Positions 16,420 to 60,976 of a DNA stretch of 64,000 nucleotides are shown here, in pieces. The DNA is taken from the NCBI RefSeq assembly GCF_002794355.1, contig NZ_PGOI01000013.1, forward strand, positions 1 through 64,000, read 5' to 3'. Under the pieces are notes generated by a model, which did not search any database, was not told the origin of the DNA, and was given only the letters and a program-made list of their open reading frames with translations. Made by a program: the position numbers and the translations under genes. Within the stretch, counting starts at the first letter, position 1, and every line of letters starts with the position of its first letter. This stretch comes from Pseudorhodobacter sp. MZDSW-24AT (GTDB lineage Bacteria > Pseudomonadota > Alphaproteobacteria > Rhodobacterales > Rhodobacteraceae).

Positions 16420-16815
16420 CTAGATCGCCAACCGGCCAAAGACCGAGACAACGCCTTCCATCCCCGCCGCTTCCGGCACGCCCACCGCCACTTCCTCGCG
16501 CGTCCACACGGGCGAGTCCGCCGGATCGTATTTCATCGCCCAATGGCTGAACATCCGCGCGGTATCGGCAATCTCGCGCCGCATCAGCGTGCGCACATGC
16601 TCGTGCCGTTTGTCGGCGCAGATACGGGCATAGGTGGCCTCCACCGCCTCCGCCGGGCCTTCCAGCAGTTGCAAGAACAGGTCTTCACGGCAGATCAGCG
16701 CCCCGGTGATCTGGTCGCGCATGTTGCAGCGGCGCGCTTCGATCAGGATCGCAGTCAGGACGCCGCCATCATATTCGACAGGGCGGGACGCATAGGCAAG
16801 TTGCAACAGAGGCAT
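16420..16815 (-). CDS. BLUF-domain blue-light photoreceptor, short type
   Basis: This 131-residue protein is essentially a single BLUF domain that would bind FAD and sense blue light. All photochemically important positions of AppA can be matched: Tyr8 (AppA Y21), Ser10 (S23), Asn31 (N45), Gln49 in LFLQLLEG (Q63), Trp92 (W104) and Met94 (M106). About 35 residues follow with no output domain, so it should signal by protein-protein contact. Start is ATG 16815 with AAGGA upstream, and the TTG before it is ignored. It is followed immediately by a membrane micro-protein, a possible partner. Confidence 0.9.
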   Translation of the reverse strand: MPLLQLAYASRPVEYDGGVLTAILIEARRCNMRDQITGALICREDLFLQLLEGPAEAVEATYARICADKRHEHVRTLMRREIADTARMFSHWAMKYDPADSPVWTREEVAVGVPEAAGMEGVVSVFGRLAI

Positions 16816-16953
16816 CAAATCAATCCTTTCAGGGCGCCCAAGCCGGCGCCCGGCCCGACATTATGCAACCAGACCTGTCAAGACCAGTGGTCACCACGCA
16901 AAAGGCCCCGGAAATACCGGGGCCTGACTTCGCGTCATCCTGTCAGCGGGGCC

Positions 16954-17730
16954 TTACACCACCCGCTCGACCATCATCTTCTTGATCTCGGCAATCGCCT
17001 TGGCCGGGTTCAGCCCTTTGGGGCAGGTCTTGGCGCAGTTCATGATCGTGTGGCAGCGATACAGCTTGAACGGATCTTCCAGATCGTCCAACCGCTCGCC
17101 CGTCGCCTCATCGCGGCTGTCGATGATCCAGCGATAGGCATGCAGCAAGGCGGCTGGCCCCAGATATTTGTCGCCATTCCACCAATAGCTCGGGCAAGAC
17201 GTGCTGCACGATGCGCACATCACGCATTCATACAGACCATCCAGCTTTTCCCGGTCCTCGATCGACTGACGCCATTCCTTGGCCGGGCGGTTGGTCTTGG
17301 TTTCCAGCCACGGCATGATGCTGGCATGCTGCGCATAGAAATGCGTCAGGTCCGGGATCAGATCCTTGATCACCGGCATATGCGGCAGCGGATAGATCTT
17401 CACATCGCCTTTCACCTCGTCCAACCCATAGATACAGGCCAGCGTGTTGATGCCGTCGATGTTCATCGCGCAAGACCCGCAAATCCCTTCACGGCAGGAC
17501 CGGCGGAAGGTCAGCGTCGGGTCGATCTCATTCTTGATCTTGATCAGCGCGTCCAGAACCATCGGGCCGCAGCTGTCCATATCGACGAAATAGGTGTCGA
17601 CCTGCGGGTTTTTCCCGTCATCGGGATTCCAGCGATAGATCTGGAATTTCCGCACATTCTTGCCCTCCGGCTTCGGCCATGTCTTGCCGGTGCGGATGGT
17701 GCTGTTCTTGGGAAGCGTGAATTGAACCAT
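16954..17730 (-). CDS. sdhB: succinate dehydrogenase iron-sulfur subunit
   Basis: This 258-residue subunit carries the electron-transfer clusters of complex II between FAD in SdhA and quinone. The plant-type [2Fe-2S] motif [15 protein letters not shown] and the C-terminal ferredoxin Cys clusters ([16 protein letters not shown] and [15 protein letters not shown]) are complete. It is last in the minus-strand operon sdhC-sdhD-sdhA-lipoprotein-lipoprotein-sdhB, 3 bp after the preceding lipoprotein gene, with GGAAGGGA as ribosome-binding site. Confidence 0.97.
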
Positions 17731-18466: not shown

Positions 18467-20269
18467 TCAGAACTTCCGCTCTGCCGGGGCGATTTTCTTC
18501 AAGGAAATCCCGCCGTCGGCCTCAGAGGTCAGCGGTTCCACATGCACCGCGCGATAGCTCAGCGTCACCTTGTTGCCATCGACATGGGCAAGGCTGTGCT
18601 TGCGCCAGTTGGCATCGTCGCGCTGCGGATAATCCTCATGCGCATGGGCGCCACGGCTTTCGGTGCGCGCATGCGCCCCATAGATCGTGGCCAGCGCATT
18701 CGGCATCAGATTGGTCAGCTCCAGCGTTTCCATCAGGTCGCTGTTCCACACCAGACTGCGGTCGGTCACCTTCAGATCCGCCACACGTCCGGCGATCTCG
18801 GTCATCTTGCGCTCGCCTTCGGCCAGCGTCTTGTCGGTGCGGAACACCGCCGCATCGGCCTGCATGGTCTTTTGCATGTCCAGCCGCAGGTCGGCGGTCG
18901 GGATCGCGCCATTCGCATGGCGCAAGCCGTCAAAGCGCGCCAGCGCCCGCTCCACTTCCACCTTGTTGGTGGCGGGCGTCGCCTCGTCGGGGTTCACCAC
19001 CTTGCCCGCGCGGATCGCTGCCGCACGGCCAAACACCACAAGGTCGATCAACGAATTCGAACCCAGACGGTTCGCGCCATGCACCGAAGCACAGCCCGCT
19101 TCGCCCACCGCCATCAGGCCGGGGAACACCGCATCCGGGTTGTCGGCGGTCGGGTTCAGCACCTCGCCCCAATAGTTGGTCGGAATGCCGCCCATGTTGT
19201 AATGCACGGTCGGCAGCACCGGGATCGGCTCTTTCGTCAGGTCAACGCCCGCGAAAATCCGCGCGCTTTCCGAAATCCCCGGCAGACGCAAATCCAGCGT
19301 CTCCTTCGGCAAATGGTTCAGGTGCAGGCTGATATGGTCGCCATTCGGCCCCACACCGCGCCCTTCGCGGATCTCCAGCGTCATGCAGCGCGACACATAA
19401 TCGCGCGGGGCCAAGTCCTTGTAATGGGGCGCATAGCGCTCCATGAACCGCTCGCCGTTGCTGTTGGTCAGATAGCCGCCCTCACCACGCGCGCCTTCGG
19501 TGATCAGACAGCCCGAGCCATAAATCCCCGTCGGATGGAACTGCACGAATTCCATATCCTGCAGCGGCAGCCCCGCGCGGGCCACCATGCCGCCGCCGTC
19601 GCCGGTGCAGGTATGGGCCGAGGTCGCGCTGAAATAGGCGCGGCCATAACCGCCCGTCGCCAACACCACCATCTTGGCGTTGAAGACATGCATGGTGCCA
19701 TCATCCAGCTTCCACGCCACCACACCCGTGCAACGCCCGTCGGTGATGATCAGATCCAGCGCGAAATACTCGATATAGAATTCCGCGTTGTTCTTCAGGC
19801 TCTGGCCATAGAGCGTGTGCAGAATGGCATGCCCCGTCCGGTCAGCGGCGGCACAGGTGCGCTGCACCGGCGGGCCTTCGCCATATTCCGTGGTATGGCC
19901 GCCGAACGGGCGCTGATAGATCTTGCCCTCTTCGGTGCGGCTGAACGGCACACCGTAATGCTCCAGCTCATACACCGCCTTGGGCGCCTCGCGCGCCAGA
20001 TATTCCATCGCATCCGTGTCGCCCAGCCAGTCGCTGCCCTTCACGGTGTCATACATGTGCCACTGCCAGCTGTCGGGCCCCATGTTCCCAAGGCTCGCCG
20101 CAATGCCGCCCTGCGCCGCCACCGTATGGCTGCGCGTGGGGAACACCTTGGTCACACAGGCCGTGCGCAAGCCTTGTTCGGCCATGCCCAGCGTGGCGCG
20201 CAAGCCTGCGCCGCCCGCCCCCACCACGACCACATCATAGTCATGCACTTCATAAGGATATGCCGTCAT
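18467..20269 (-). CDS. sdhA: succinate dehydrogenase flavoprotein subunit
   Basis: This 600-residue subunit oxidises succinate to fumarate on covalently bound FAD. Visible are the dinucleotide fold [13 protein letters not shown], the FAD-attachment segment [11 protein letters not shown] (His), the active-site region [21 protein letters not shown] and the C-terminal block with THAR-type residues. ATG 20269 ([12 protein letters not shown]) has AAGGAAAG upstream. The longer frame to 20305 overlaps sdhD and is rejected. It is the third gene of the sdh operon. Confidence 0.97.
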
Positions 20270-20279
20270 CTTCTTTCCT

Positions 20280-20651
20280 TCACAGCGCCATGCGCACAAG
20301 GGCAAACAGCCCCGTCGCCGCGATCGCCCAGGCCAGGCAGGTCACCAGAATGACCGCCACCTTGCGCGCCGAGCCCTGCACATAATCTTCAATCATCATC
20401 TGCGCGCCGCTGGCGAAATGCTTCATTCCCACCACCAGCACCAAAGCCGTCAGGATCGCCGGCAGCGGCCGCCCGAAGGTGGCCAGCACCTCCGCCTGCG
20501 TCCCGCCCAGCGCCGAGCCAAAGACATAGAGCCACGCCGGAATCATCAAGGCCAGCGCCACCGCCGACACCTGCATCGCCCAGTGATGCGCCGTGCCGGT
20601 GCCCGAAGCCCCTTTGCCGACCGCCCGCTTCCGATCCGTGATATACCGCAT
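20280..20651 (-). CDS. sdhD: succinate dehydrogenase hydrophobic membrane anchor subunit
   Basis: This 123-residue protein has three transmembrane segments. The heme b/quinone-site signature [13 protein letters not shown] carries the proximal His and the conserved Asp-Tyr. With SdhC it anchors SdhAB and forms the quinone site. ATG 20651 lies 11 bp after the sdhC stop. An in-frame ATG at 20666 would overlap sdhC and is less likely. Confidence 0.93.
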
Positions 20652-20662
20652 CGCCCCGCTCC

Positions 20663-21049
20663 TCACTGCACCAGAAGAATTGTGATCACGGTCAGCACCA
20701 CCGACCCGATGATGACCCCCCAGCCCAGCTTTTCCGCCGTGGGAATATCAAGGCCCTTGCCCGCATCGAAATACAGATGCCGCAGCCCGGCCAGATAGTG
20801 ATACCACACCGCCCAAAGCGACCCGGTGAAGACCAGATCCCCGAACCAGCCCGTCGCCACCGCATTCGCCGTCGCAAAGGCCTCGGGCGACACCGCCGCC
20901 GCCACCAGCCACCACACCGCAAGCAGCGTGCCGACGATCAGCGCATTCCCGGTGATCCGCGTCAGGATCGAGGTGATAGAGGTCAGTTGCGGACGGTAAA
21001 TCTGCAAATGCGGGGAAAGCGGCCGTTTGACCTGCTTTACGTTTGCCAT
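20663..21049 (-). CDS. sdhC: succinate dehydrogenase cytochrome b556 subunit
   Basis: This 128-residue membrane subunit has the family N-terminus RPLSPHLQIYR, a SITSILTRITG segment with quinone-site Ser/Arg and the heme-ligand block HYLAGLRHLYFD. Three transmembrane helices are evident. It is first in the sdh operon, with GAAGGGA before ATG 21049. Two GTGATCAC palindromes lie 168-196 bp upstream and probably control the operon. Confidence 0.95.
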   Translation of the reverse strand: MANVKQVKRPLSPHLQIYRPQLTSITSILTRITGNALIVGTLLAVWWLVAAAVSPEAFATANAVATGWFGDLVFTGSLWAVWYHYLAGLRHLYFDAGKGLDIPTAEKLGWGVIIGSVVLTVITILLVQ

Positions 21050-21216
21050 ATCGGTTCCCTTCGTCGCTGGCTTGTCCCGGCTGGTTTCCCTGAAAGACCG
21101 GTCCGGGGCGCGCTTCGATTATTGTGTCTCTGAATAGCGCTTTTTTTGGGCCTGTCACGCGCCGCAACAGCGCAGTCGCAGCATTTTAGCGATAACACCG
21201 GATATTTTCAGACTTT

Positions 21217-21245
21217 GTGATCACGAATTTTCCGCGCGTGATCAC
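21217..21245 (-). promoter_or_regulatory. paired GTGATCAC operators upstream of sdhC
   Basis: Two perfect 8-bp palindromes GTGATCAC lie at 21217-21224 and 21238-21245, exactly 21 bp apart, in the short AT-rich gap between mch and sdhC. Extended they read TTGTGATCACGA and GCGTGATCACAA. The same palindrome occurs three times at the same 21-bp spacing before sucC (29859-29908). They are probably binding sites for a dimeric regulator of the TCA operons. The factor is not identified. Confidence 0.75.
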
Positions 21246-21264
21246 AAATCCGGGCCACACCGAC

Positions 21265-22290
21265 TCACAGCGGCATCAGCACCCAATAATCCAGATCCAG
21301 CAGCACCTCGGGCAGGTATTTTCCATCCGCCCCCCGCAGCGCAAAGGCCTCGCCCCGGCTGGCCACCAGCCGCAGCCGCAGCGCCCCCACACCCGGTGCC
21401 GCCGTCTCGGCCTTGCCCAGCACTTCCGACCATGCCCGCACCGTATCCCCGGCAAAGCAGGGGTTGGCATGGGCGCCCGCGTTCAGCGCCACAAGCATTT
21501 GCGCATTGGCCAGCCCGTTGAACGACAGCGCCCGCGCCAGACTGATCACATGGCCGCCATAGATCAGCCGCCGCCCGTCTGGCCGTGCCGTGGCGTCGAA
21601 ATGCACTTTCGCGGTGTTCTGCCACAGGCGGGTGGCCAGCATGTGCTCGGCCTCCTCCACCGTCACCCCATCCACATGGTCGATCTGCTCGCCCACCGTG
21701 TAATCGCCCCAGCGGTGGCGCTCTCCGGCTTGGGCAAAGTCGTAGCGTCGGAAATCCAGCCCCTCGGGCAGCACCAGCGCCTCGGGCGCCACCACCGGGG
21801 AAAGCGTGGGCACCACCGTCTCGGGGGCCGGGGCCTCCACCCGCCGCTTGCGCACCATCACCCAGCGCACATATTCCAGCACCGCCCCGCCATGCTGGTT
21901 GATCCCGCGCGTGCGCACCCAGACCACGCCGGATGCGCCGTTGGAATTCTCCTTCAACCCGATCACCGTGCTTTCGGCCCGCAAGGTGTCGCCCGCATAG
22001 ACGGGCGCCAGCCAGCGCCCCTCGGCATAGCCCAGATTCGCCACCGCATTCAGGCTGATGTCGGGCACGCTCTTGCCAAACACCGTGTGAAAGGCGGCCA
22101 GATCCTCGACCGGGGCGCGCGGCAGACCACAGGCCTGCGCAAAAGGGTCCGAGGAATACAGCGCGTGCCGCGCCGGATAGAGCGCGTGGTAAAGTGCCCG
22201 CTCGCCGCCCGAAAGGGTGCGCGGCACCGCATGGGCGATCACCTCGCCCAAACGGTAATCCTCGAAGAAACGCCCCGGATTGGTCTTCAT
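21265..22290 (-). CDS. mch: mesaconyl-CoA hydratase (beta-methylmalyl-CoA dehydratase)
   Basis: This 341-residue double-hotdog protein of the MaoC-like hydratase group is predicted to hydrate mesaconyl-CoA to beta-methylmalyl-CoA in the ethylmalonyl-CoA pathway. Visible are two hotdog halves, the N-terminal GRFFEDYRLGEVIAHAVPRT, the YAGDTLRAESTVIGLKEN strand typical of MaoC domains and a second block with FAGDTVRAWSEVLGK. Length matches Rhodobacter Mch, and the gene order (mch next to sdh, with an mcl2-type gene nearby) agrees with the arrangement I recall from R. sphaeroides. Confidence 0.9.
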   Translation of the reverse strand: MKTNPGRFFEDYRLGEVIAHAVPRTLSGGERALYHALYPARHALYSSDPFAQACGLPRAPVEDLAAFHTVFGKSVPDISLNAVANLGYAEGRWLAPVYAGDTLRAESTVIGLKENSNGASGVVWVRTRGINQHGGAVLEYVRWVMVRKRRVEAPAPETVVPTLSPVVAPEALVLPEGLDFRRYDFAQAGERHRWGDYTVGEQIDHVDGVTVEEAEHMLATRLWQNTAKVHFDATARPDGRRLIYGGHVISLARALSFNGLANAQMLVALNAGAHANPCFAGDTVRAWSEVLGKAETAAPGVGALRLRLVASRGEAFALRGADGKYLPEVLLDLDYWVLMPL

Positions 22291-22338
22291 TTCATCCCCC
22301 TCAGGCCCGGTCTTGGTGGCGTGCGCGCAGGCAGCCCC

Positions 22339-22542
22339 CTAGTGATCGCCCAGCTTGGTCTCGGGTGAATATTCCCCCAGAACTTCCTTGGTTACCGCCT
22401 GCCCACAGCGCATCACCCCGCGCGCGGCGTCAAAGGCATAGGTCGGATCTCCGTGCAGGTGCCAGCCCTTGTTCAGCGCCGCTGTCACCTTGTGACAAAA
22501 GGCCGACGTGTCATCTTCCGACAGGAACCGATAGAGTTTCAT
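22339..22542 (-). CDS. DUF1737 domain protein
   Basis: This 67-residue soluble protein contains the DUF1737 pattern: MKLYRFLSEDDTSAFCHKV followed by LNKGWHLHGDPTYAFD. The function of the family is unknown. It lies 4 bp after nnrU and 48 bp before mch on the same strand and is probably co-transcribed. Confidence 0.8.
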   Translation of the reverse strand: MKLYRFLSEDDTSAFCHKVTAALNKGWHLHGDPTYAFDAARGVMRCGQAVTKEVLGEYSPETKLGDH

Positions 22543-22546
22543 ATCC

Positions 22547-23092
22547 TCACCCCCAAGGCTGCACGCCCATTGCGTTGTGGATCAGCATCACCACAACCGT
22601 CACCACCAGCGTGGCACCGATCGCCACGATTTCCTTCACCGCCGGGCGCGGCGCGGGCGGCACCCATTCGGGCGTCGCGCGGTTGATCACGATCACCTCC
22701 GCCACCGCCCAAGCCAGCAGGCCGCCAAACAGCACAAGGCTCGGCAGATCGCCGTTCACCAGCAGATGCGCCACCGCCCACAGCTTGAACCCGGTCAGTT
22801 GCGGATGCCGGATCTTGCGCGCCAGCCATGTTTTCGCGCCCGAGGCCGCATAGCAATAGATCGCCAGCACCATCAGCAGGTTGTTGATCCCGACCAGCGC
22901 CGGGCTGCGGCCCCACCAGACCGGGCCTTGGGCGGTGCCATAGCCCCAATACATCAGCCCGATGCTCAGAATCAGCAGCGCCGTGACCAGCCCCTTGCCG
23001 CCCGCGCCCATGCGGGCGCGCGCCTCTGGCGCCAGCCGTTTGAAGAAATGCGCGCCCCACCAAAGCGCGACACCAAGAAGAAGAAGGGCCAT
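22547..23092 (-). CDS. NnrU family integral membrane protein
   Basis: This 181-residue protein has about five or six transmembrane segments and the NnrU pattern: ALWWGAHFFKRLAP at the N-terminus, RHPQLTGFKLWAVAHLLVNGD in the centre and a C-terminal helix. NnrU was named for its link to nitric-oxide/nitrite reductase gene clusters and resembles isoprenylcysteine methyltransferase-type membrane proteins. No denitrification gene is visible here. CGGAGGTAA precedes ATG 23092. Confidence 0.88.
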   Translation of the reverse strand: MALLLLGVALWWGAHFFKRLAPEARARMGAGGKGLVTALLILSIGLMYWGYGTAQGPVWWGRSPALVGINNLLMVLAIYCYAASGAKTWLARKIRHPQLTGFKLWAVAHLLVNGDLPSLVLFGGLLAWAVAEVIVINRATPEWVPPAPRPAVKEIVAIGATLVVTVVVMLIHNAMGVQPWG

Positions 23093-23126
23093 GGGTTACC
23101 TCCGGTTGCCTCGCGGCACCATGGCC

Positions 23127-23993
23127 TCAATCCGCCAGCGCCGCAATCGCTTCGGCCCGCGCCAAGGTGGCGCGCGCCGTCTCGACATGCAGGTTCTCGA
23201 CGATCCGCCCGTCGACCACCGCCACCGCCTGCCCTTCGGCCAGCGCCGCCGCGAAAGCCGCAATCTGGCGCCGCGCCAGATCCACCTCTTCCGCGCTGGG
23301 GGCAAAGGCGGCATTGGCGATCTCCAGCTGCGCCGGATGGATCAGCGTCTTGCCGTCAAAGCCCATGTCGCGCCCCTGTTCGCATTCGGCGCGCAAACCC
23401 GCCTCATCCTTGAAGGCGTTATAGACCCCGTCCACGATCACCCGGCCATGCGCCTTTGCCGCCAGCAGGCACAGCCCCAGCCCCGTCAGCATCGGCAGCC
23501 GATCGGCCCGGACACGCGCGCCCAACTCCTTGGCCAGATCATTGGTGCCCATCACCATGCCCCGCAGCGCCGGATGTGCCGCAATCGCGGCGGCGTTCAG
23601 CATGCCCTGCGCCGTTTCCATCATCGCCCACAGCGGCTTGCCCGGCGCCACCGCCGCCACCGCATCCAGATCGGCAGGGCCGTTCACCTTGGGCACCAGC
23701 AGCGCCTCCGCCCCGGGATGCGCCGCGAAAGCCTCGGCATCCGCGCCGCCCCATGGCGTGTCAAAACCGTTGATCCGCACAAGGCGCACCCGCGACCCGT
23801 AATCCGCCGCCAAGGCCTGCGCCAGCACCGCGCGCGCGCCGGCCTTCTCCTCAGGCGCGACCGCATCCTCCAGATCAAAGATGATCGCATCCGCCGGCAA
23901 GCCCCGCGCCTTGTCCAACGCCCGCTCCTTGGAGCCGGGGATATACAGAACCGACCGGAACGGGCGGGCGTCTTTGGCAGCAGGCGATGTCAT
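23127..23993 (-). CDS. mcl2: (3S)-malyl-CoA thioesterase (Mcl2-type CitE/HpcH-fold protein)
   Basis: This 288-residue member of the citrate lyase beta/HpcH superfamily begins with SVLYIPGSKERALDKA and has the metal and CoA motifs IIFDLEDAV, MMETAQGMLNA and MGTNDLAKELG. In Rhodobacter two paralogues exist: Mcl1 (malyl-CoA/beta-methylmalyl-CoA lyase, about 318 residues) and Mcl2, a (3S)-malyl-CoA thioesterase of about 285 residues that completes an apparent malate synthase. Length, N-terminus and position near mch fit Mcl2. ATG 23993 has GAGG upstream, and the frame to 24077 adds an unsupported extension. A lyase activity cannot be excluded. Confidence 0.83.
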   Translation of the reverse strand: MTSPAAKDARPFRSVLYIPGSKERALDKARGLPADAIIFDLEDAVAPEEKAGARAVLAQALAADYGSRVRLVRINGFDTPWGGADAEAFAAHPGAEALLVPKVNGPADLDAVAAVAPGKPLWAMMETAQGMLNAAAIAAHPALRGMVMGTNDLAKELGARVRADRLPMLTGLGLCLLAAKAHGRVIVDGVYNAFKDEAGLRAECEQGRDMGFDGKTLIHPAQLEIANAAFAPSAEEVDLARRQIAAFAAALAEGQAVAVVDGRIVENLHVETARATLARAEAIAALAD

Positions 23994-24162
23994 CGATTCG
24001 ACCTCAAGCAATAATCTTGCGCCAGAAACCCCGATTTCGTCACAAACCGCAAGCCTAAATCCGCCGCACCGCAGCATCGGCGCCGCAAGCCCGCAGGATT
24101 AACCGATTCTACGCATTCCGGGCGCAGCCTTTCCCGCATCTCACCCGCAGCGGAGTCCTCCG

Positions 24163-24474
24163 ATGAACCAAACCCTTCTCGCCTTCTCGCTCGGCGCCGC
24201 CGGGCTCATCCTCGCCGCCACCCAGATCCACGCCGCCCCCCAATGCGGCAAGCGCGATCTCGTCCTGCGCCAATTGTCAGAAAAATACGGCGAAACCCGC
24301 CGCAGCATGGGCCTTGGCGGCGACAACACCGTGATGGAGGTGTTTGCCTCCGCCGCCTCTGGCAGCTGGACCATCACCGTCACCCTCCCCGATGGCATGA
24401 CCTGCCTCGTCGCCTCGGGCCAAGGCTTCGAACCGGTGGTCGAAGAACTCCCCGCCCGCGGCCGCAAGATCTGA
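24163..24474 (+). CDS. small secreted protein of unknown function
   Basis: This 103-residue protein has a cleavable Sec signal peptide ([24 protein letters not shown], cleavage likely before APQC) and a mature part with two Cys (APQCGKRD and GMTCLVASG) likely to form one disulfide in the periplasm. The mature part resembles small, uncharacterised Rhodobacteraceae periplasmic proteins. It is a monocistronic gene with GGAG upstream. No function can be assigned. Confidence 0.75.
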
Positions 24475-24566
24475 CACCGCCAAATTATTCGCGCCCCGGC
24501 CGGAACCCTTTGCCAACGGCCCGCGTTCCTTCCCCAGACAACAGACACTCACGGAAGGAACGCACC

Positions 24567-24758
24567 ATGAGCAGCACCAGCGACAAGATCAAAGGCACCG
24601 CCAACGATGCAATGGGCAACGTGAAGCAGGCCGTCGGCAAGGCCACCGACAACCACAAGCTGCACGCCGAAGGCGTCATGCAAGAGCGTAAGGGCGAAGC
24701 CCAAAAAGCAGTCGGCGAAGCCAAAGACGCCGTCAAGAAGACCATCGACAACGTCTAA
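24567..24758 (+). CDS. CsbD family stress-response protein
   Basis: This 63-residue, highly charged, Cys-free protein shows the CsbD repeat pattern [20 protein letters not shown] followed by [19 protein letters not shown]. CsbD-like proteins are induced in general stress in many bacteria and are probably intrinsically flexible. Start ATG 24567 has GGAAGGAA upstream. It is followed by a strong terminator at 24814-24839. Confidence 0.9.
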
Positions 24759-24772
24759 GGTTGATGGACGAC

Positions 24773-24811
24773 CGGCTTTCCTCAAGGCCAAAAACGGCTT
24801 TCCTCAAGGCC
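24773..24811. repeat. 17-bp direct repeat (CGGCTTTCCTCAAGGCC)
   Basis: Two exact copies lie at 24773-24789 and 24795-24811, 22 bp apart, between the CsbD stop and its terminator. This is probably a local duplication with no evident function. Confidence 0.7.
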
Positions 24812-24813
24812 GG

Positions 24814-24839
24814 AAAAGGGTGCCCTCGGGCACCCTTTT
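24814..24839. terminator. bidirectional rho-independent terminator
   Basis: AAAAGGGTGCCC (24814-24825) pairs perfectly with GGGCACCCTTTT (24828-24839), followed by CTTTTG. It serves the CsbD gene on the plus strand and can equally end transcription of the convergent TauE/SafE gene. Confidence 0.9.
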
Positions 24840-24848
24840 CTTTTGCCC

Positions 24849-25601
24849 CTACCCCAGCGCCCCCGCGACCCCGTCCCAGATCAACTTGGCCGACAGCGCC
24901 AGCAGCGCCCAAGTGACAAAGCGGAAGAAGGCGGCCTCCGGCAACAGCTTCACCAGCTTCAGCCCCACGAACACCGACACCGCCGCCACCGGCATCAAAA
25001 CCACCGCCACCCGCAGATTGGCGGCGCTCAACTGGCCCAACTGCCAATAAGGCACCAGCTTCACCAAATTCACGATAGCAAAGGCAATGGTCGAGGTGCC
25101 CGCATAGACCAGCTTCGGCATCCCCAAAGGCATCGTATACACCTGATAGGGCGGCGCGCCCGCATGGCTCACAAAACTGGTGAACCCGGTCATCGCCCCC
25201 CAGAACAACCCCGGCGCCACCCGTGCCGGGCGCGGACTCACCGGCCCTTTGCGCCGCAGCAACAGATTCAGCGCGAACACCAATCCGATCGCCCCCACCA
25301 GCGCCGTCACCGCCCAGACCGGCACCAAGGCCGCCGTGGCCCAGCCCACGCCCACGCCCGCCACCATCCCCGGCACCAGAATGGCTATCACCCGCGCATT
25401 GAACGCATGGCGATAGGCATAAAGCCCGAACATGTCCGACAGCACATAGACCGGCAGCAACAGCCCCGCCGCCGTCACCGGGTTGATCACCAAGGCCAGC
25501 ACCGGCACGCCCAGAATGCCCACGGCGGGCAAACCGCCCTTGCCCATCCCCACCAAAGCCGCCGCCACCACCGCCGCCGCCCAGAACGCCACACCTTCCA
25601 C
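24849..25601 (-). CDS. TauE/SafE family sulfite/sulfonate exporter-type membrane protein
   Basis: This protein of about 250 residues has eight or so transmembrane segments in two repeats, with the family signature GMGKGGLPAVGILGVPVLAL near the N-terminus and a second conserved block GFTSFVSHAGAPPYQVYTMP. Members export sulfite, sulfoacetate or related organic anions, and the substrate cannot be read from sequence. The start is uncertain: GTG 25601 has GGAGGG 6 bp upstream and is preferred, while a TTG at 25625 would add 8 residues. Confidence 0.88.
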   Translation of the reverse strand: MEGVAFWAAAVVAAALVGMGKGGLPAVGILGVPVLALVINPVTAAGLLLPVYVLSDMFGLYAYRHAFNARVIAILVPGMVAGVGVGWATAALVPVWAVTALVGAIGLVFALNLLLRRKGPVSPRPARVAPGLFWGAMTGFTSFVSHAGAPPYQVYTMPLGMPKLVYAGTSTIAFAIVNLVKLVPYWQLGQLSAANLRVAVVLMPVAAVSVFVGLKLVKLLPEAAFFRFVTWALLALSAKLIWDGVAGALG

Positions 25602-25632
25602 GCCCGTCCCTCCGCCGTTTCCCAACCGCTAG

Positions 25633-26724
<1,092 letters not shown>

Positions 26725-26745
26725 TCGCCGCGACAGCCTGACCTC

Positions 26746-26775
26746 AAACGCGCGCCCTGAAAGGGGCGCGCGTTT
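26746..26775 (+). terminator. rho-independent terminator after mdh
   Basis: AAACGCGCGCCC (26746-26757) pairs with GGGCGCGCGTTT (26764-26775) over a 6-nt loop, followed by TGCGTTT. It separates mdh from the AT-rich segment that follows. Confidence 0.88.
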
Positions 26776-26924
26776 TGCGTTTCGAAACCCTATGATTTAA
26801 AGCGAATGCATAAGTGGCGGCTTTAAGAAATGCTCATTTTTCCCAAGTTACTGGCGATAATCATCGCCCTCTATTAGATATAGAAGTATGACCGTCGTGC
26901 AATTTATCAAAATAAGGACGAAAA
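26776..26924. other. AT-rich non-coding segment before the orphan gene
   Basis: Base composition drops sharply after the mdh terminator. The segment contains stretches such as GCATAAGTGGCGGC and TATTAGATATAGAAG, which could supply promoter elements, and AAGGACG just before ATG 26925. I see no tRNA, integrase remnant or flanking direct repeat that would define an insertion boundary. Confidence 0.5.
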
Positions 26925-27647
26925 ATGATATTGCCAACCGACTGGGGTAACGACGCATTAACACAATACCTCGATGCGCATAGATTTAACCAGCTCGCCA
27001 CGTTTGCCAACAAAAAATCTCAGTTAAACGATCTCATTGAAATTGACTCAATGTTTCGGAAGCTATTGGATGGCGCGATAAACCCCAAACCATTTCTACC
27101 TTTTGGTTTTATATTCAGGGCACATTCTGCATACTTGTCGGCTTGCAGTTCTGTTATGGGCGGGCAGCTTTATGAAGCGCAGTCCCTCCTTCGCGTTGCC
27201 TTGGAGCAAGCCGGATATGGCCACTATATTGGCTCAGATGAAGCTCGCTGGAAGCGCTGGATGGCTCGTGAAGAGCCGCGCAGCCGAAGTCAGAAAGACA
27301 AATGGCGAGAAGAGTTCACACATGGAAAAGTGGCTAAGGCTATCACAGCGGCCGATGGATCCGTTGGTGAAATTTACAATCAACTTTATGAGCGTTCAAT
27401 TTCATATGGAGCACACCCAAACCAACTCGGAGACTCCATGGGTTCAGCGATAGAAGACTTAGAGGACGGGGGAAAACATTTTCTAACAATATATCTACAT
27501 GGCAACGGCATAGCACTTGATTTCGCCATCAAGAGCACATCGCAGGTTGGCTTGTGCGTCCTGAGAATTGCAAAGATCATCTATCCTTTCCGCATGCAAG
27601 CAACCGGGCTAGACTTGGAACTCGACGCCATTTGTCAGAGATTTTAG
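26925..27647 (+). CDS. orphan protein of foreign-looking composition, function unknown
   Basis: This 240-residue, mostly alpha-helical protein has no signal peptide or clear transmembrane segment. Its codon usage (many A/T-ending codons such as TTA, ATA, AAA) is unlike every neighbour, pointing to recent acquisition. AAGGACG lies before ATG 26925. I do not recognise a family. The segment RSISYGAH has an Arg-x6-His spacing reminiscent of HEPN RNase motifs (Rx4-6H), and such genes often ride in defence or toxin cassettes, but the match is weak. It is flanked by mdh and pepT with no partner gene. Confidence 0.75.
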   Translation: MILPTDWGNDALTQYLDAHRFNQLATFANKKSQLNDLIEIDSMFRKLLDGAINPKPFLPFGFIFRAHSAYLSACSSVMGGQLYEAQSLLRVALEQAGYGHYIGSDEARWKRWMAREEPRSRSQKDKWREEFTHGKVAKAITAADGSVGEIYNQLYERSISYGAHPNQLGDSMGSAIEDLEDGGKHFLTIYLHGNGIALDFAIKSTSQVGLCVLRIAKIIYPFRMQATGLDLELDAICQRF

Positions 27648-27863
27648 TTGCCAACGTTAAAGTCCAACTTGGGATCGACTACACCACCCAAGGCCATATC
27701 GAATGTCATTACACTCCCCAACCCTTACCAAATCCTTAACCGCACACCCCCAACCCGTTGATTTCCCTACACTCCCCCTCCTGTAACACAGCGAGACACC
27801 CCGCCCACCCTTGACTTCCTCCCGGCCAAGGGGCCAACTCCGGGCGACCCCAAGGAGGCCCCC
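27648..27863. other. non-coding segment between the orphan gene and pepT
   Basis: Composition returns gradually from AT-rich (before about 27740) to the GC-rich norm. The end of the segment holds AAGGAGG, the pepT ribosome-binding site. I see no inverted repeat strong enough to call a terminator for the orphan gene. Confidence 0.4.
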
Positions 27864-29129
27864 ATGACCCCATTCGACGCCGAGCTGGAAGCCCGCCTGA
27901 CCCGCTACGCCGCCCTCGACAGCCAGAGCGACGCGGCCTCCCCCAGCGCCCCCTCCACCCAGGTCCAGTGGGGCATCCTGCGGCTGCTGGCCGACGAGCT
28001 GACCCAGATCGGCGCCGCCGAGGTGCGGGTGACCGATTACGGGACCGTGCTGGCCACCATCCCAGGCACCGCCCCCGGCCCCACCATCGGCTTCCTCGCC
28101 CATGTCGACACCGCCCCGCAGTTCAACGCGACCGGGGTCAAACCCCGCGTGATCCATGGCTACAACGGGGGCGACATCACCTTTCCCGACGCGCCCGGCC
28201 TGATCCTGTCGCCGGCCGCGTTCCCTTACCTCGCCAGCAAACAGGGCCACACGATCATCACCGCCAGCGGCACCACCCTGCTCGGCGCCGATGACAAGGC
28301 GGGCGTCGCCATCATCATGACCGCCGCGCGCCACCTCTTGGAGACCCCCCAGATCCCGCACGGCCCCATCCGCATCGCCTTCACCCCCGACGAAGAGATC
28401 GGCCGCGGCGTCGACAAGCGCCTGCCTGCCGACCTCGCCGCCGACTTCGCCTATACCTTCGACGGCGGCGCGGTGGGCGAGGTGGAATACGAAAGCTTTT
28501 CCGCCGACGGCGCGGTGGTCAAGATCACCGGCGTCTCCATCCACCCCGGCACCGCCTATGGCCGGATGGTCAACGCGATCCCCCTCGCCGCCAAGATCAT
28601 CGCCGCCCTCCCGCAATCCACCATGACGCCGGAAACCACCCAAGACCGCGAGGGCTTCATCCACGCCACCGACATGACCGGCGGCGCCGCCGAGATGACG
28701 CTCCATTTTATCCTGCGCGATTTCGAGCGTGACGGGCTGGCCCAAAAGGGCGAGATCCTGCGGCACGTCTGCGCCGCGGTGCAGGCCACCGAACCACGGG
28801 CCCAGATCACCTGCACCATCACCCCCCAATACCGCAACATGCGCTATTGGCTGGAAAACGACATGACCCCGGTGACCCTTGCCCGCGCCGCCTGCGCCCG
28901 CATCGGGGTCGCGCCGGTGTCGGTGCCGATCCGCGGCGGCACCGACGGCTCGCGGCTGACCGAGATGGGCATCCCCTGCCCCAACCTTTTCACCGGGATG
29001 CAAAACATCCACGGCCCGCTGGAATGGGTCTCGGTGCAGGACATGGCCAAGGCCACCGAACTTTTCCTTGCGCTGGTGCAGGAAGCCGCAAGCGAAGACA
29101 GCCGTCCGGCAGGACGCGCAGCCCGGTGA
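27864..29129 (+). CDS. pepT: peptidase T, tripeptide aminopeptidase
   Basis: This 421-residue M20B metallopeptidase removes the N-terminal residue from tripeptides. Zinc-site motifs are present: AHVDTAP (first His/Asp), GADDKAG (bridging Asp), TPDEEIGRG (catalytic Glu and ligand) and the C-terminal PNLFTGMQNIHG (His ligand). AAGGAGG precedes ATG 27864. The stop overlaps the GTG start of the methyltransferase gene (GTGA), indicating translational coupling. Confidence 0.95.
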   Translation: MTPFDAELEARLTRYAALDSQSDAASPSAPSTQVQWGILRLLADELTQIGAAEVRVTDYGTVLATIPGTAPGPTIGFLAHVDTAPQFNATGVKPRVIHGYNGGDITFPDAPGLILSPAAFPYLASKQGHTIITASGTTLLGADDKAGVAIIMTAARHLLETPQIPHGPIRIAFTPDEEIGRGVDKRLPADLAADFAYTFDGGAVGEVEYESFSADGAVVKITGVSIHPGTAYGRMVNAIPLAAKIIAALPQSTMTPETTQDREGFIHATDMTGGAAEMTLHFILRDFERDGLAQKGEILRHVCAAVQATEPRAQITCTITPQYRNMRYWLENDMTPVTLARAACARIGVAPVSVPIRGGTDGSRLTEMGIPCPNLFTGMQNIHGPLEWVSVQDMAKATELFLALVQEAASEDSRPAGRAAR

Positions 29130-29797
29130 CCCGCCCTCTTTCCCCCTATCTCGCCCCCGGCTTCTACGACACCGCATTGGCGCAGGGCCGCCACCGCGAG
29201 ATCGTCGGCGGCCGCTGGGAGGAGACGGGGCGGATTCAGATGGAGATCTTGCAAGACGCCGGGCTCCGGTCTGACCACCGCCTTCTTGATATCGGCGCCG
29301 GCAGCCTGCGTCTTGGCTGCAGGGCTGTTCCCTTCCTTGATCCCGGCCATTATTGGGCGACCGACGCCAGCCGCGCACTGATGCTGCGCGGGCGCGCGGT
29401 CGAACTTGCCCAGCCGGACCGCCTGCCCGAAGATCACCTGATCGAAGACAGCACCTTCGCCTTGCCCGGTGTGCCGCCGACGATGGATTATGCCATCGCT
29501 TTTGGCGTCTTCACGCACCTGCCCTTTGCCGTGTTGCAACAGGCGCTGGCGCGGATGCACCCGCGCTTGCCGCACCTGCGCCACCTGTTCGTGACCGTCT
29601 TTCTGGCAGAGGAAAACGAGGCTGCCGCCCCCGTCCGGCAGGCGGATGGGGTGGTCACCCATCCGGACCGTCCCCCCTACCATTTTCGCCTGTCCGACGT
29701 GCAGGCTGCATGCACGGCGGGCGGCTGGCAGGCTCTGCGCGACACGAGGATGTTGCCCCGCGGGCAGGCCCTCTTGCGGCTGACGCGGCAGCTTTGA
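29126..29797 (+). CDS. class I SAM-dependent methyltransferase
   Basis: This 223-residue protein starts with GTG 29126 overlapping the pepT stop. The SAM-binding motif [13 protein letters not shown], an acidic turn after strand 2 ([10 protein letters not shown]) and the motif IV region [14 protein letters not shown] are visible. The substrate is unknown. A longer frame back to 28847 lies inside pepT and is rejected. Coupling to pepT is the only functional clue, and it is weak. Confidence 0.82.
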
Positions 29798-29858
29798 CGC
29801 TCCGAATCAGCTGGGATTCCCGTGCTCTGCACAGAAATCCATGCGACGAATGGTGCAA

Positions 29859-29908
29859 GTGATCACAGCCGCGTTTTCTGTGATCACACTTTTCCAACGT
29901 GTGATCAC
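29859..29908 (+). promoter_or_regulatory. three phased GTGATCAC operators upstream of sucC
   Basis: Perfect palindromes GTGATCAC lie at 29859-29866, 29880-29887 and 29901-29908, each exactly 21 bp from the next (two helical turns). The extended consensus with the two sdhC copies is TGTGATCACA. The last site is 110 bp before the sucC start in a 220-bp non-coding gap. This is strong evidence for a cooperative operator array controlling the suc operon. The regulator is unknown. Confidence 0.8.
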
Positions 29909-30017
29909 AAATGCCGGAATTTACCGCCATTTTGCGCTAACAGGCACGAACCCGTTTGGTTGCCGCCCATATTCATGGCATGAGGCACGCAAATTCACGA
30001 CCCAGAGGACGCTGTTC

Positions 30018-31211
30018 ATGAACATCCACGAATATCAGGCCAAGGCACTCCTGCGGGCCTACGGGGTTCCCGTTTCGGACGGGCGCGTGGTGCTGCGCGC
30101 CGAGGAAGCCAAGACCGCAGCCGGTGAGATGGACGGCCCGCTGTGGGTGGTCAAGGCACAGATCCACGCCGGTGGACGCGGCAAGGGCACCTTCAAGGAA
30201 GCCGAAGCCGGCGAAAAGGGCGGCGTGCGTCTGGCGCGTTCGGTGGAAGAAGCGGCCGAATTCGCCCGCCAGATGCTGGGCCGCACGCTGGTGACGGTGC
30301 AGACCGGCGAGGCAGGCAAGCAGGTCAACCGGATCTACATCGAAGACGGCTCGGACATCGAGCGTGAGCTTTACCTTGCCATGCTGATCGACCGCGCGAC
30401 GAGCCGCATCTCTTTCGTCGTCTCCACCGAAGGCGGCATGTCGATCGAAGACGTGGCGCATGACACGCCCGAAAAAATCCTGTCCTTCACCGTCGATCCG
30501 GCCTCGGGCCTGTCCGATTTCCACGGCCGCCGCGTTGCCTTTGAACTGGGCCTGACCGGCAATCAGGTCAAGCAATGCGTGACCTTGGTCAAGAACCTGT
30601 ATCGCCTGTTCCAAGAAAAGGACATGGAGATGCTGGAGATCAACCCGCTGGTGGTGATGACCGATGGCAACCTGAAATGCCTCGACGCCAAGATGGGCTT
30701 TGATTCCAACGCGCTGTATCGCCACGCCGACATTATGGCGCTGCGCGACGAGTCGGAAGAAGACCCGAAAGAACTGGCGGCCTCGAAGTTCGATCTGAAC
30801 TACATCGCTCTGGATGGCGAAATCGGCTGCATGGTGAACGGCGCGGGCCTTGCGATGGCCACCATGGACATCATCAAGCTCTATGGGGCGGAACCGGCCA
30901 ACTTCCTGGACGTTGGCGGCGGCGCGACCAAGGAAAAGGTGACCGAGGCGTTCAAGATCATCACCTCGGACCCGAACGTCAAAGGCATCCTCGTCAACAT
31001 CTTTGGCGGCATCATGCGCTGCGACATCATCGCCGAAGGCGTGATCGCCGCAGTCAAGGATGTGGGGCTGAAGGTTCCGCTGGTCGTCCGGCTGGAAGGC
31101 ACCAATGTGGAATTGGGCAAGGATATCATCCGCAACTCGGGCCTGAACGTGATCGCCGCCGACAATCTGTCGGATGCGGCCCAGAAGATCGTCAAAGCGG
31201 TAAAAGGGTAA
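30018..31211 (+). CDS. sucC: succinyl-CoA synthetase (ADP-forming) beta subunit
   Basis: This 397-residue ATP-grasp subunit begins [19 protein letters not shown], has the substrate-binding [15 protein letters not shown] and ends with the CoA-ligase block ([25 protein letters not shown]). With SucD it makes succinate plus ATP from succinyl-CoA. The frame extends to 29841, but ATG 30018 gives the standard N-terminus. It is first in sucC-lipoprotein-sucD-sucA-sucB-MAPEG-lpd, downstream of the 21-bp-phased operators. Confidence 0.97.
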
Positions 31212-32619: not shown

Positions 32620-35580
32620 ATGACCGAGCACTCCCCCAACAGCCAGTTCCGCGCCGGCGCTTTCCTTGACGGGGCCAATGCCGATTATATCGATCAATTG
32701 CAGGCGCGCTATGCCGCCGACCCGGCCTCGGTCGATGCGCAATGGGCTGAATTCTTTCGTGAGCTTGGCGAAAGCGAAGTCGATGCCAAGCGTGCCGCCC
32801 AAGGCCCAAGCTGGGCGCGCGCCGATTGGCCGCCGATGCCCCTGGACGATCTGACCGGTGCGCTGACCGGCGAATGGCCGGTCGCAGCGCCCGCAAAAGA
32901 AGGCCGCGCGGCCGCCGCCAAGATCGCCGCCAAAGCCGAGGAAAAGGGCGTCTCCCTGTCCGACAGCCAGGTGCAGCGCGCTGTGCTTGACAGCATCCGC
33001 GCCCTGATGATCATTCGCGCCTACCGCATCCGCGGCCATCTGATCGCCGATGTCGACCCGCTGAAGATGCGCGATCAGACCCCGCACCCCGAGCTTGACC
33101 CGCGCTCTTACGGCTTCACCGAAGCCGACATGGACCGCCCGATCTTCATCGACAACGTGCTGGGCCTTCAGGTCGCCTCGATGCGCCAGATCATGGACAT
33201 CGTGAAGCGCACCTATTGTGGCACCTTCGCGCTGCAATACATGCATATTTCCGACCCCGAGCAGGCCAGCTGGCTGAAAGAGCGGATCGAAGGCTACGGC
33301 AAAGAGATCCAGTTCACCCGCGAAGGCCGCCGCGCCATCCTGAACAAGCTGGTCGAAGCCGAAGGGTTCGAAAAGTTCCTGCATGTCAAATACATGGGGA
33401 CCAAGCGCTTTGGTCTGGATGGTGGCGAAGCCCTGATCCCCGCAATGGAAGCGATCATCAAGCGCGGTGGTCAACTCGGGCTGAAGGAAGTCGTCGTCGG
33501 CATGCCGCACCGGGGCCGCCTGTCGGTTCTGGCCAATGTGATGGGCAAACCCTACCGCGCCATCTTCCACGAATTCCAAGGCGGGTCGTTCAAGCCCGAG
33601 GATGTCGATGGCTCGGGCGATGTGAAATATCACCTCGGCGCTTCGTCGGACCGCGAATTTGACGGCAACAAGGTTCACCTGTCGCTGACGGCAAACCCCA
33701 GCCACCTTGAGGCTGTGAACCCGGTCGTCCTCGGCAAGGTCCGCGCCAAGCAGGACCAGCTGAATGACACCGACCGCACCATGGTTCTGCCCGTGCTGCT
33801 GCACGGCGATGCGGCTTTCGCGGGCCAAGGTGTCGTGGCCGAATGCTTCGGGCTGTCGGGCCTGAAAGGCCACCGTACCGGGGGCACCATCCATATCGTG
33901 GTGAACAACCAGATCGGCTTTACCACCGCCCCGGCGTTCAGCCGGTCCTCCCCTTATCCAACCGACATCGCCTTGATGGTCGAAGCCCCGATCTTCCACG
34001 TGAATGGCGACGATCCCGAAGCCGTGGTCCATGCGGCCAAGGTGGCCATCGAATTCCGCCAGAAGTTCCACAAAGACGTGGTGCTCGACATCTTCTGCTA
34101 CCGCCGCTTTGGTCACAACGAAGGCGACGAGCCAATGTTCACCAACCCGGCGATGTATACCGAGATCAAGAAGCACAAGACCACCTTGCAGCTTTACACC
34201 GAACGTCTGGTCAAGGACGGTTTGATCCCCGAAGGCGAGATCGAGGATATGAAGGCCGCCTTCCAATCGCGCCTGAACGAAGAGTTCGAGGCCGGCAAGG
34301 CCTTCAAGCCCAACAAGGCCGATTGGCTGGATGGCCGCTGGTCGGGGCTTGAGCGGGAGCGTGACGAATATCAGGCCGGGGAAACCGCGATCAAGGCCGA
34401 GACCATGGCCGAAATCGGGGCCGCGCTCAGCCGCTCACCCGAAAAGTTCGACCTACACAAAACGGTCGCGCGTCTTCTGGACAACAAGGCCAAGATGTTC
34501 GCCGAAGGCAAAGGCTTTGACTGGGCCACCGCCGAAGCGCTGGCCTTTGGCAGTCTGGCCGTCGAAGGCGTGCCGGTGCGTTTGTCAGGTCAGGATTGCA
34601 CCCGTGGCACCTTCAGCCACCGGCATTCGGGCCTTGTCGATCAAACCACCGAAGAGCGGTACTATCCGTTGAACCACATCCGCGCCGGTCAGGCGCGGTA
34701 TGAGGTGATCGACTCGATGTTGTCGGAATATGCGGTGCTCGGGTTCGAATATGGCTATTCGCTGTCGGAACCCAATGCGCTGACGCTGTGGGAAGCGCAG
34801 TTTGGCGATTTCGCCAATGGCGCGCAGATCATGTTCGACCAGTTCATCAACTCGGGCGAATCCAAGTGGTTGCGCATGTCGGGTCTGGTCTGCCTCTTGC
34901 CGCATGGCTACGAAGGCCAAGGCCCGGAGCATTCGTCCGCACGGCCCGAGCGGTTCTTGCAGATGTCGGCAAATGACAACTGGATCGTGGCGAATGTCTC
35001 GACCCCGGCGAACTATTTCCACATCCTGCGCCGCCAGATCCACCGCAGCTTCCGCAAGCCGCTGATCCTGATGACGCCGAAATCCTTGCTGCGCCATCCG
35101 ATGGCCATCTCGGATGCGGCCGATTTCACCACCGGCTCATCCTTCCACCGCGTGCTGTGGGATGATGCGCAAAAGGGCCATTCCGAGCTGACGCTGAAGC
35201 CCGACGCCGAGATCAAGCGTGTGGTTCTGTGCTCGGGCAAGGTCTATTACGACCTGCTGGCCGAGCGGGACAAGCGCGGCGCGGATGACATCTATCTGTT
35301 GCGTCTGGAACAGTTCTACCCCTTCCCGGTTCAGTCGATGTCCAAAGAACTGGAGCGTTTCAAGGGCGCCGAGATCATCTGGTGTCAGGAAGAGCCGAAG
35401 AACCAAGGCTACTGGAGCTTTGTGGAACCCAATATCGAATGGGTGCTGAGCAAGATCGGGGCCACCCAAGGCCGGGCCCGCTATGTGGGCCGCTCTGCCT
35501 CGGCCTCGCCCGCCACGGGTCTCGCCAGCCGGCACAAGGTGGAACAAGACGCGCTGGTCAACGAAGCGCTGACGTTCTGA
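32620..35580 (+). CDS. sucA: 2-oxoglutarate dehydrogenase E1 component
   Basis: This 986-residue thiamine-diphosphate enzyme decarboxylates 2-oxoglutarate and passes succinyl to SucB. The N-terminus carries the short E2-binding peptide region (GANADYIDQLQARYAADP). ThDP/Mg motifs lie around GMPHRGRLSVLANV, DVKYHLG and NNQIGFTT, and the C-terminal half has HSSARPERFLQM and the NCSTPANYFH-equivalent NVSTPANYFHILRRQ. It is 250 bp after sucD. The gap shows no GTGATCAC site and no T-tailed terminator. Confidence 0.97.
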   Translation: MTEHSPNSQFRAGAFLDGANADYIDQLQARYAADPASVDAQWAEFFRELGESEVDAKRAAQGPSWARADWPPMPLDDLTGALTGEWPVAAPAKEGRAAAAKIAAKAEEKGVSLSDSQVQRAVLDSIRALMIIRAYRIRGHLIADVDPLKMRDQTPHPELDPRSYGFTEADMDRPIFIDNVLGLQVASMRQIMDIVKRTYCGTFALQYMHISDPEQASWLKERIEGYGKEIQFTREGRRAILNKLVEAEGFEKFLHVKYMGTKRFGLDGGEALIPAMEAIIKRGGQLGLKEVVVGMPHRGRLSVLANVMGKPYRAIFHEFQGGSFKPEDVDGSGDVKYHLGASSDREFDGNKVHLSLTANPSHLEAVNPVVLGKVRAKQDQLNDTDRTMVLPVLLHGDAAFAGQGVVAECFGLSGLKGHRTGGTIHIVVNNQIGFTTAPAFSRSSPYPTDIALMVEAPIFHVNGDDPEAVVHAAKVAIEFRQKFHKDVVLDIFCYRRFGHNEGDEPMFTNPAMYTEIKKHKTTLQLYTERLVKDGLIPEGEIEDMKAAFQSRLNEEFEAGKAFKPNKADWLDGRWSGLERERDEYQAGETAIKAETMAEIGAALSRSPEKFDLHKTVARLLDNKAKMFAEGKGFDWATAEALAFGSLAVEGVPVRLSGQDCTRGTFSHRHSGLVDQTTEERYYPLNHIRAGQARYEVIDSMLSEYAVLGFEYGYSLSEPNALTLWEAQFGDFANGAQIMFDQFINSGESKWLRMSGLVCLLPHGYEGQGPEHSSARPERFLQMSANDNWIVANVSTPANYFHILRRQIHRSFRKPLILMTPKSLLRHPMAISDAADFTTGSSFHRVLWDDAQKGHSELTLKPDAEIKRVVLCSGKVYYDLLAERDKRGADDIYLLRLEQFYPFPVQSMSKELERFKGAEIIWCQEEPKNQGYWSFVEPNIEWVLSKIGATQGRARYVGRSASASPATGLASRHKVEQDALVNEALTF

Positions 35581-35663: not shown

Positions 35664-36884
35664 ATGACTGATGTAATGGTCCCCGCCCTTGGTGAATCGG
35701 TTTCCGAGGCCACCGTTTCGACCTGGTTCAAGAAGGTCGGCGATGTGGTGAAACAAGACGAGATGCTGTGCGAGCTGGAAACCGACAAGGTGTCGGTGGA
35801 AGTGCCCGCCCCGGCCTCGGGCGTGCTGGCCGAGATCTTGGTGCAGGAAGGCGAAACCGTCGCCGCCAACGCCCGCCTTGGCATCATCTCGGAAGGCGCC
35901 GCCGCCCCGGCCACCAAGGACGAGCCCAAGGCGAAAGAGGCCGCAGCCGTGAACTCGCCCGGTGCCGGGCCGGAAACGCCCGCGCCGCGCAAGGACGTGG
36001 AAGATGCGCCTTCGGCCAAGAAAGCCATGGCCGAAGCCGGCGTCAGCCGCGATCAGGTGCAAGGCTCGGGCCGGGATGGCCGCGTGATGAAGGAAGATGT
36101 GGCCAAGGCGGCAAGCGCGCCCGCGGCCTCGCCCGCCCCGGCCCCCGCCGCGATGCCGCGCGGCCCGGTCAGCAGCGATGACGCCAGCCGCGAAGAGCGG
36201 GTCAAGATGACCCGCCTGCGCGCCACCATCGCCCGCCGCCTGAAAGACGCGCAGAACACCGCCGCGATGCTGACCACCTATAACGAGGTGGACATGTCGG
36301 GCATCATGGCGCTGCGCAACGAATACAAGGACGCCTTCGAGAAAAAGCACGGCACCAAGCTGGGCTTCATGTCCTTCTTCGTGAAGGCCTGCACCCATGC
36401 GCTGAAAGAAGTGCCCGAGGTGAATGCCGAGATCGACGGCGGCGACATCATCTACAAGCACTACGTCCACATGGGCGTGGCCGTGGGCACCCCGAACGGT
36501 CTTGTGGTGCCGGTGGTGCGCGACGCCGACCAGATGGGCTTTGCCGCGATCGAGAAGAAGATCGCCGAACTGGGCCTGCGCGCCCGTGACGGCAAGCTCA
36601 GCATGGCCGAGATGCAAGGCGGCTCCTTCACCATCTCGAACGGCGGTGTCTATGGCTCGCTGATGTCCTCGCCGATCCTGAACCCGCCGCAATCGGGGAT
36701 TCTGGGCATGCACAAGATTCAGGACCGCCCGGTGGTGGTGAACGGCCAGATCGTGATCCGCCCGATGATGTATCTGGCGCTGTCCTACGATCACCGCATC
36801 GTCGACGGCAAAGGCGCCGTGACGTTCCTTGTCCGCGTCAAGGAAGCGCTGGAAGATCCGCGCCGCCTGCTGATGGATCTGTGA
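35664..36884 (+). CDS. sucB: dihydrolipoyl succinyltransferase (2-oxoglutarate dehydrogenase E2)
   Basis: This 406-residue protein has three domains: a lipoyl domain with the lipoylated Lys in [12 protein letters not shown], an Ala/Pro-rich linker, a peripheral subunit-binding domain ([20 protein letters not shown]) and the catalytic domain with the active-site HxxxDG in [12 protein letters not shown]. It follows sucA by 83 bp. It transfers succinyl to CoA in the 2-oxoglutarate dehydrogenase complex. Confidence 0.97.

Positions 36885-37441: not shown

Positions 37442-38830
<1,389 letters not shown>

Positions 38831-58974: not shown

Positions 58975-60976
<2,002 letters not shown>

Follow-up and report, generated by a model that had tools for sequence, protein, structure and literature searches.

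Tandem palindromes 21 bp apart before sdhC and sucC of Pseudorhodobacter sp. MZDSW-24AT as probable operators of AkgR

The window analysed here (64,000 nucleotides of contig NZ_PGOI01000013.1 of Pseudorhodobacter sp. MZDSW-24AT, family Rhodobacteraceae) carries two groups of tricarboxylic acid (TCA) cycle genes, sdhCDAB and sucCDAB-lpd, and a gene for a regulator of the GntR/FCD type. The palindrome GTGATCAC is repeated in the gaps before sdhC and sucC, and these repeats are read, with a probability of about 0.9, as tandem operators of that regulator, the activator AkgR, by which the two operons would be jointly activated.

The GTGATCAC word was found eight times in the window (starts at 20682, 21217, 21238, 29859, 29880, 29901, 52124 and 60095), against 0.88 copies expected and at most 4 in shuffled sequences (n=100). 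Two copies lie in the mch–sdhC gap and three in the gap 5' of sucC, as an earlier note on this DNA had described, and all three distances between neighbours among these five sites were measured as exactly 21 bp, again in agreement with it. Both gaps are non-coding by their open reading frames (ORFs): the mch stop is at 21265 and the sdhC start at 21049 on the minus strand, and the ORF upstream of sucC ends at 29797, with the sucC ATG at 30018. Among the 256 palindromic 8-mers, GTGATCAC was the only one with any pair 9–60 bp apart in the window. Throughout the genome (3.86 Mb, 26 contigs) the pattern GTGATCACN{10,16}GTGATCAC, that is, pairs with a gap of 10–16 bp, was matched at the sdhC and sucC loci only (reversed control 0). 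The earlier claim of a specific sdh/suc co-regulation signal is supported. The extended consensus TGTGATCACA proposed earlier is exact at just two of the five sites and inexact at the other three; four copies of it were found in the genome, two of them at sucC, and the solitary copies elsewhere (L036, L037) fall within ORFs that carry Pfam domains. Solitary intragenic GTGATCAC words had also been listed and are present, with the one in the putative groL ORF located at 60095–60102 and not at 60096; a further word at 52124–52131, inside an acetyl-CoA-synthetase-type ORF (50728–52719), had been overlooked.

The coordinates of operators, promoter and genes are collated in Table 1. The name sdhC was taken from the earlier note, from position and from homology rather than from a family model, and no family was matched by sdhD in the NCBIfam search. 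The genes from sucC to lpd presumably form one transcript, judging from gene order and strand. A short gene for a BLUF blue-light sensor (16420–16818) follows directly after sdhB.

Table 1. Operators, predicted promoter, target genes and regulator gene in the window.
Feature	Position	Strand	Basis or remark
sdhC operator GTGATCAC, proximal to the minus-strand sdh promoter	21217–21224		
sdhC operator GTGATCAC, distal	21238–21245		21 bp from the proximal one
sucC operator, most distal of three	29859–29866		
sucC operator, middle	29880–29887		full TGTGATCACA
sucC operator, promoter-proximal	29901–29908		TGTGATCACAAA
sdhC core promoter (predicted), GTGACA-N16-TATTCA	21131–21158	-	58 bp downstream of the proximal operator
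sdhC, first gene of sdhCDAB	20663–21049	-	position before sdhD/A/B; tblastn homologs in relatives
sdhD	20280–20666	-	position only
sdhA	18467–20305	-	NCBIfam TIGR01816 over cut-off
sdhB	16954–17730	-	NCBIfam NF004616 over cut-off
sucC, succinyl-CoA synthetase beta	30018–31211	+	NCBIfam NF001913 over cut-off
sucD, downstream of sucC	from 31266	+	NCBIfam model over cut-off
sucA	32620–35580	+	NCBIfam model over cut-off
sucB	35664–36884	+	NCBIfam model over cut-off
lpd	37442–38830	+	NCBIfam model over cut-off
akgR ortholog (putative), protein P0001, GntR/FCD regulator	40769–41419	-	Pfam; identity to Cereibacter johrii protein

The regulator was traced by way of RSP_0981 of Rhodobacter sphaeroides, a GntR-family protein that we take to be AkgR. 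It was reportedly equated with AkgR and shown to activate TCA genes by Imam, Noguera and Donohue (mBio, 2015). A home-built GntR profile gave no match in any of 20 fetched 20-kb sdh–suc regions of relatives; synteny was therefore taken from Cereibacter, with a protein of Cereibacter johrii JA192, a near relation of R. sphaeroides, used as the synteny-based proxy for RSP_0981. In C. johrii both arrays lie on one contig and the GntR gene is 5.3 kb from the sdh array, a position that matches the numbering RSP_0974-6 (sdh) and RSP_0981. Within the genome under study 32 GntR-domain matches were obtained, 28 of them over the family cut-off, and 29 proteins were extracted. Of these, P0001 was 84.8% identical to the C. 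johrii protein over 211 amino acids, and the runner-up 38.8%. Both domains of P0001, GntR (PF00392) and FCD (PF07729), scored over their Pfam cut-offs. Given this identity and the place expected for RSP_0981, the ORF at 40769–41419, named as a candidate in the earlier note, very probably encodes the AkgR ortholog. In a search of 190 class genomes with P0001 at E 1e-40, kinship being listed for all but 165 genomes that gave no match, five genomes matched: three in the family and two others at 38–43% identity. In PMC6365646 GTGATCAC is reported among the binding sites of AkgR, which is termed a transcriptional activator, and a 2015 network paper (PMC4344238) predicts that in R. sphaeroides RSP_0981 regulates sucCD, sdh and the genes of 2-oxoglutarate (alpha-ketoglutarate) dehydrogenase. 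The earlier view that the palindrome belongs to no named regulator thus had to be given up, and the gene set downstream of the arrays is the same as the predicted one.

Two positions of P0001 presumably correspond to metal-ligand positions of solved FCD proteins, at which Asp and His are usual. These putative ligands are Asn and Asp in P0001 and were identical in all 30 akgR loci by a pattern check. The ligand site may be unusual.

Conservation in relatives, on which the earlier note had let its claim depend, was examined in 295 family genomes from 294 genera, and the claim withstood this check. Pairs of GTGATCAC with a gap of 3–33 bp were present in 268 of them (reversed control 1), and pairs at exactly 21 bp in 249 (reversed control 0). 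In 20/20 of the fetched 20-kb regions the pairs lie directly before sdhC and sucC, or before sucA in one region (L085, genome G177) whose TCA stretch is without sucC or sucD. A total of 108 arrays was measured on 85 loci from 57 genomes (51 at sdhC, in as many of the 57 genomes, 56 at sucC, one at sucA); the loci had been preselected as sdh/suc-type and arrays were sought only in the 700 bp that precede sdhC or sucC (sucA in L085), so that these 108 describe spacing and distance, not the frequency of pairs elsewhere. Both sites of the proximal pair were exact in 105 arrays, and one site carried one mismatch in the remaining three. The spacings at sdhC were 21 bp (48 times), 20 bp (4), 22 bp (1) and 25 bp (1), those at sucC 21 bp (53) and 20 bp (6), and that at sucA 21 bp. 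A third site with at most one mismatch was found in 3/51 arrays at sdhC and 3/56 at sucC; the sucC triple is shared with G135, the single genome of the same genus that was searched.

Pairs away from sdh and suc were left out of this measurement (G092:C23, G044:C27 and C57, G069:C45, G125:C6 and others); such pairs include three in G135 and nine in G265. A third 21-bp pair in G042 (L240) precedes another TCA gene, fumC. The small family genome G265 (L239, L247) has 11 GTGATCAC pairs in all, of which just two are spaced at 21 bp. Outside the family any pair was found in 24 of 380 class genomes, with scattered spacing and with two genomes (G442, G497) at exactly 21 bp; the reversed control of this search gave 42 matches in G369 and one in G526. 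The pair of G442 (L249) adjoins a GntR/FCD gene, and that of G407 (L271), which is not at 21 bp, adjoins a gene whose product is 38% identical to P0001. Since these pairs adjoin other GntR genes, several proteins of an AkgR-like subfamily may recognise the palindrome, which may be common to that subfamily.

The position of the arrays relative to the promoters was examined in the same leaders. In 37 of the 51 sdhC genomes a GTGAC element begins 57–60 bp beyond the proximal site (58 bp in the window), and by the matrix consensus a TA-rich -10 follows in most of these 37, the TA lying 16 bp after the GTGAC hexamer. When the matrix built on the 37 was applied to the other 14 sdhC leaders, six significant matches were obtained, at 78, 79, 80, 58, 60 and 15. 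For these six the mean deviation from whole helical turns gave p 0.0035, which is only suggestive of a preserved helical phase between array and sdhC promoter because two of the values (58 and 60) are those of the main cluster and the trio at 78–80 may share descent. Of the 56 genomes measured at sucC, 23 have GTTT 45–46 bp past the site, and 37 have a distance of 105–117 bp from array to start. Counting from the promoter puts the predicted centre of the proximal site at about -97 for sdhC, and a -10 picked by eye puts it at about -87 for sucC. The two centres would thus lie about one turn apart, in a class-I-like layout. Class II activation at -41.5, with CGCTAA, which lies about 26 bp past both arrays of the window, read as a -10, was considered and rejected: in an alignment CGCTAA was unconserved among 23 sdhC and 22 sucC leaders (GTGATCACAAA being the majority sequence at sucC), and for sdhC the element that does fit is GTGAC-N16-TA.

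The CGCTAA sequence looks more like one half of a CceR-like palindrome. Such palindromes (GTTAGCGCTAAC, two mismatches) were found at 21185–21196 and 29930–29941 in the sdhC and sucC leaders, 20–21 bp past the arrays, and two more at 25628–25639 upstream of mdh and 53039–53050 upstream of the acs-type ORF. Two-mismatch sites were present in 6/51 sdhC and 5/56 sucC leaders, where shuffled sequences would yield about 0.2.

Presence of the array strongly tracks presence of akgR, with 11 of the 295 family genomes discordant. With AkgR scored as present at matches better than 1e-60, both were found in 261 genomes, the array only in 7, akgR only in 4 and neither in 23; at 1e-20 the corresponding numbers were 265, 3, 13 and 14, and among 261 genomes at least 90% complete (hand-made list) they were 237, 3, 3 and 18. 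In a relaxed search that allowed at most two mismatches, 17 of the 21 array-less genomes examined gave some pair. The best relaxed locus adjoins sucC only in G040 and G291, both of which have AkgR; in these akgR-only genomes the sucC arrays are one mismatch from perfect, and G040 has a like array before sdhC. None of the other 15 best loci, 13 of which come from genomes lacking a strong AkgR match, adjoins any TCA gene of the window. At 4 of the 30 akgR loci GTGATCAC occurs in the 150 bp that precede the gene, a hint of autoregulation; in G187 (L342) two words lie 13 bp apart, the nearer one ending 9 bp short of the akgR start codon, which suggests negative autoregulation. These words, the G187 pair and the fumC pair of G042 lend extra support to the view that AkgR reads GTGATCAC.

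Several observations weigh against the AkgR reading. The 1e-60 cut was chosen after the values had been seen, and the Fisher p values (3e-24 at 1e-60, 4e-14 at 1e-20) overstate independence because the genomes are phylogenetically related. Seven family genomes that carry arrays, G019, G033, G096, G114, G256, G264 and G273 (four of them less than 90% complete), gave no AkgR match beyond the 1e-60 cut, and G155 and G147 (73% complete) have AkgR with no array near suc or sdh at the one locus checked in each. No GTGATCAC operator was found upstream of akgR in 26 of the 30 loci, the genome of the window included, and 8 of the 14 off-cluster sdhC leaders gave no significant promoter match with the matrix from the 37.

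As proposed, one AkgR dimer would bind each (T)GTGATCAC(A) palindrome, so that two or three dimers would line up along one face of the helix at intervals of two turns. From a class-I-like position upstream of a sigma-70-type core promoter these dimers could help to recruit RNA polymerase, possibly with cooperativity and by direct contact with the polymerase, and sdhCDAB and sucCDAB-lpd would be activated together.

AkgR might instead act as a repressor or as a dual regulator here. FCD regulators are often repressors, and the G187 pair before the akgR start codon has a position typical of repression. At sdhC, however, 58 bp separate the array from the predicted -35 downstream of it, and AkgR is described as an activator (PMC6365646); a repressing role is considered unlikely. 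It is quite improbable that the array is bound, with or without AkgR, by another regulator such as the AkgR paralog G000:C20 (L029, 39% identical) or a different FCD protein. The seven array-bearing family genomes without a strong AkgR match would fit such a protein, as would the outside-family pairs beside other GntR genes and the proposal that PS417_07240 of Pseudomonas simiae also binds GTGATCAC, but array presence follows AkgR strongly and the published binding sites (PMC6365646) name AkgR. At each of the five sites the two halves of the palindrome adjoin directly, as the earlier note had pointed out, and the linked regulator is of the GntR/FCD type. CRP/FNR-type sites, which the half site TGTGA/TCACA resembles, are thus very improbable, and this reading was dropped for want of a spacer between the halves, the layout TGTGA-N6-TCACA with its 6-bp spacer not occurring there. 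A functionless artefact of repeats or word frequency, for which word-rich genomes such as G265 (9 of 11 pairs not at 21 bp) might speak, is extremely improbable in view of the eight words against 0.88 expected and of pairs in 268/295 family genomes against one in the reversed control, placed at fixed genes in the regions read.

With AkgR as the preferred regulator, an orphan-looking operator array is now tied to a named protein, and the array at sdh and suc appears as a family-wide trait (268/295 genomes) and not a peculiarity of R. sphaeroides. The genome is a further instance of the known AkgR regulon, because the AkgR sites include GTGATCAC, the targets match and the ortholog is encoded nearby; the new content would lie in the tandem phasing, its family-wide fixity and the fixed distance to the sdh core promoter. 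No printed description of the phased tandem architecture, its near-universality or the fixed sdh promoter distance was found in a search that did not cover the primary AkgR paper. Strict 21-bp spacing and a fixed promoter distance offer a simple model of activation by a protein of the GntR/FCD family, which is better known for repression, and the two-site pattern is reliable for annotating sdh and suc operons. A wider proposal is put forward tentatively, its odds being judged a little short of even: that in Rhodobacteraceae the segment from 2-oxoglutarate to fumarate is under an obligatory tandem AkgR array with exact two-turn spacing, filled by two and at times three dimers and acting like an enhancer, placed far upstream with preserved phase (57–60 bp, about two turns more in three genomes), gained near the base of the family and lost with AkgR.

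Among known systems, the solved structure closest to P0001 by sequence is E. coli McbR (4p9f, E 6.7e-21), a GntR-type regulator likewise. Its operator and targets differ from those of AkgR. PS417_07240, the regulator of the deoxyribonate cluster of P. simiae, to which AkgR is 32% identical, shares the palindrome as its proposed operator; it differs by a single reported site (-47 to -40 from the start codon) and by a catabolic cluster as target, with no TCA genes (PMC6365646). In R. sphaeroides, sdh and mdh are also among the predicted targets of CceR (RSP_1663), a LacI-family regulator (PMC4344238); the sdh target overlaps and a CceR-like palindrome stands in both leaders here, whereas the motif (GTT-N6-8-AAC) and the regulator family differ. 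The closest counterpart is the AkgR regulon of R. sphaeroides, with the same palindrome, an apparently orthologous GntR/FCD regulator and the same target operons; compared with it, the sites described here are arranged in tandem at exactly 21 bp, with three copies at sucC.

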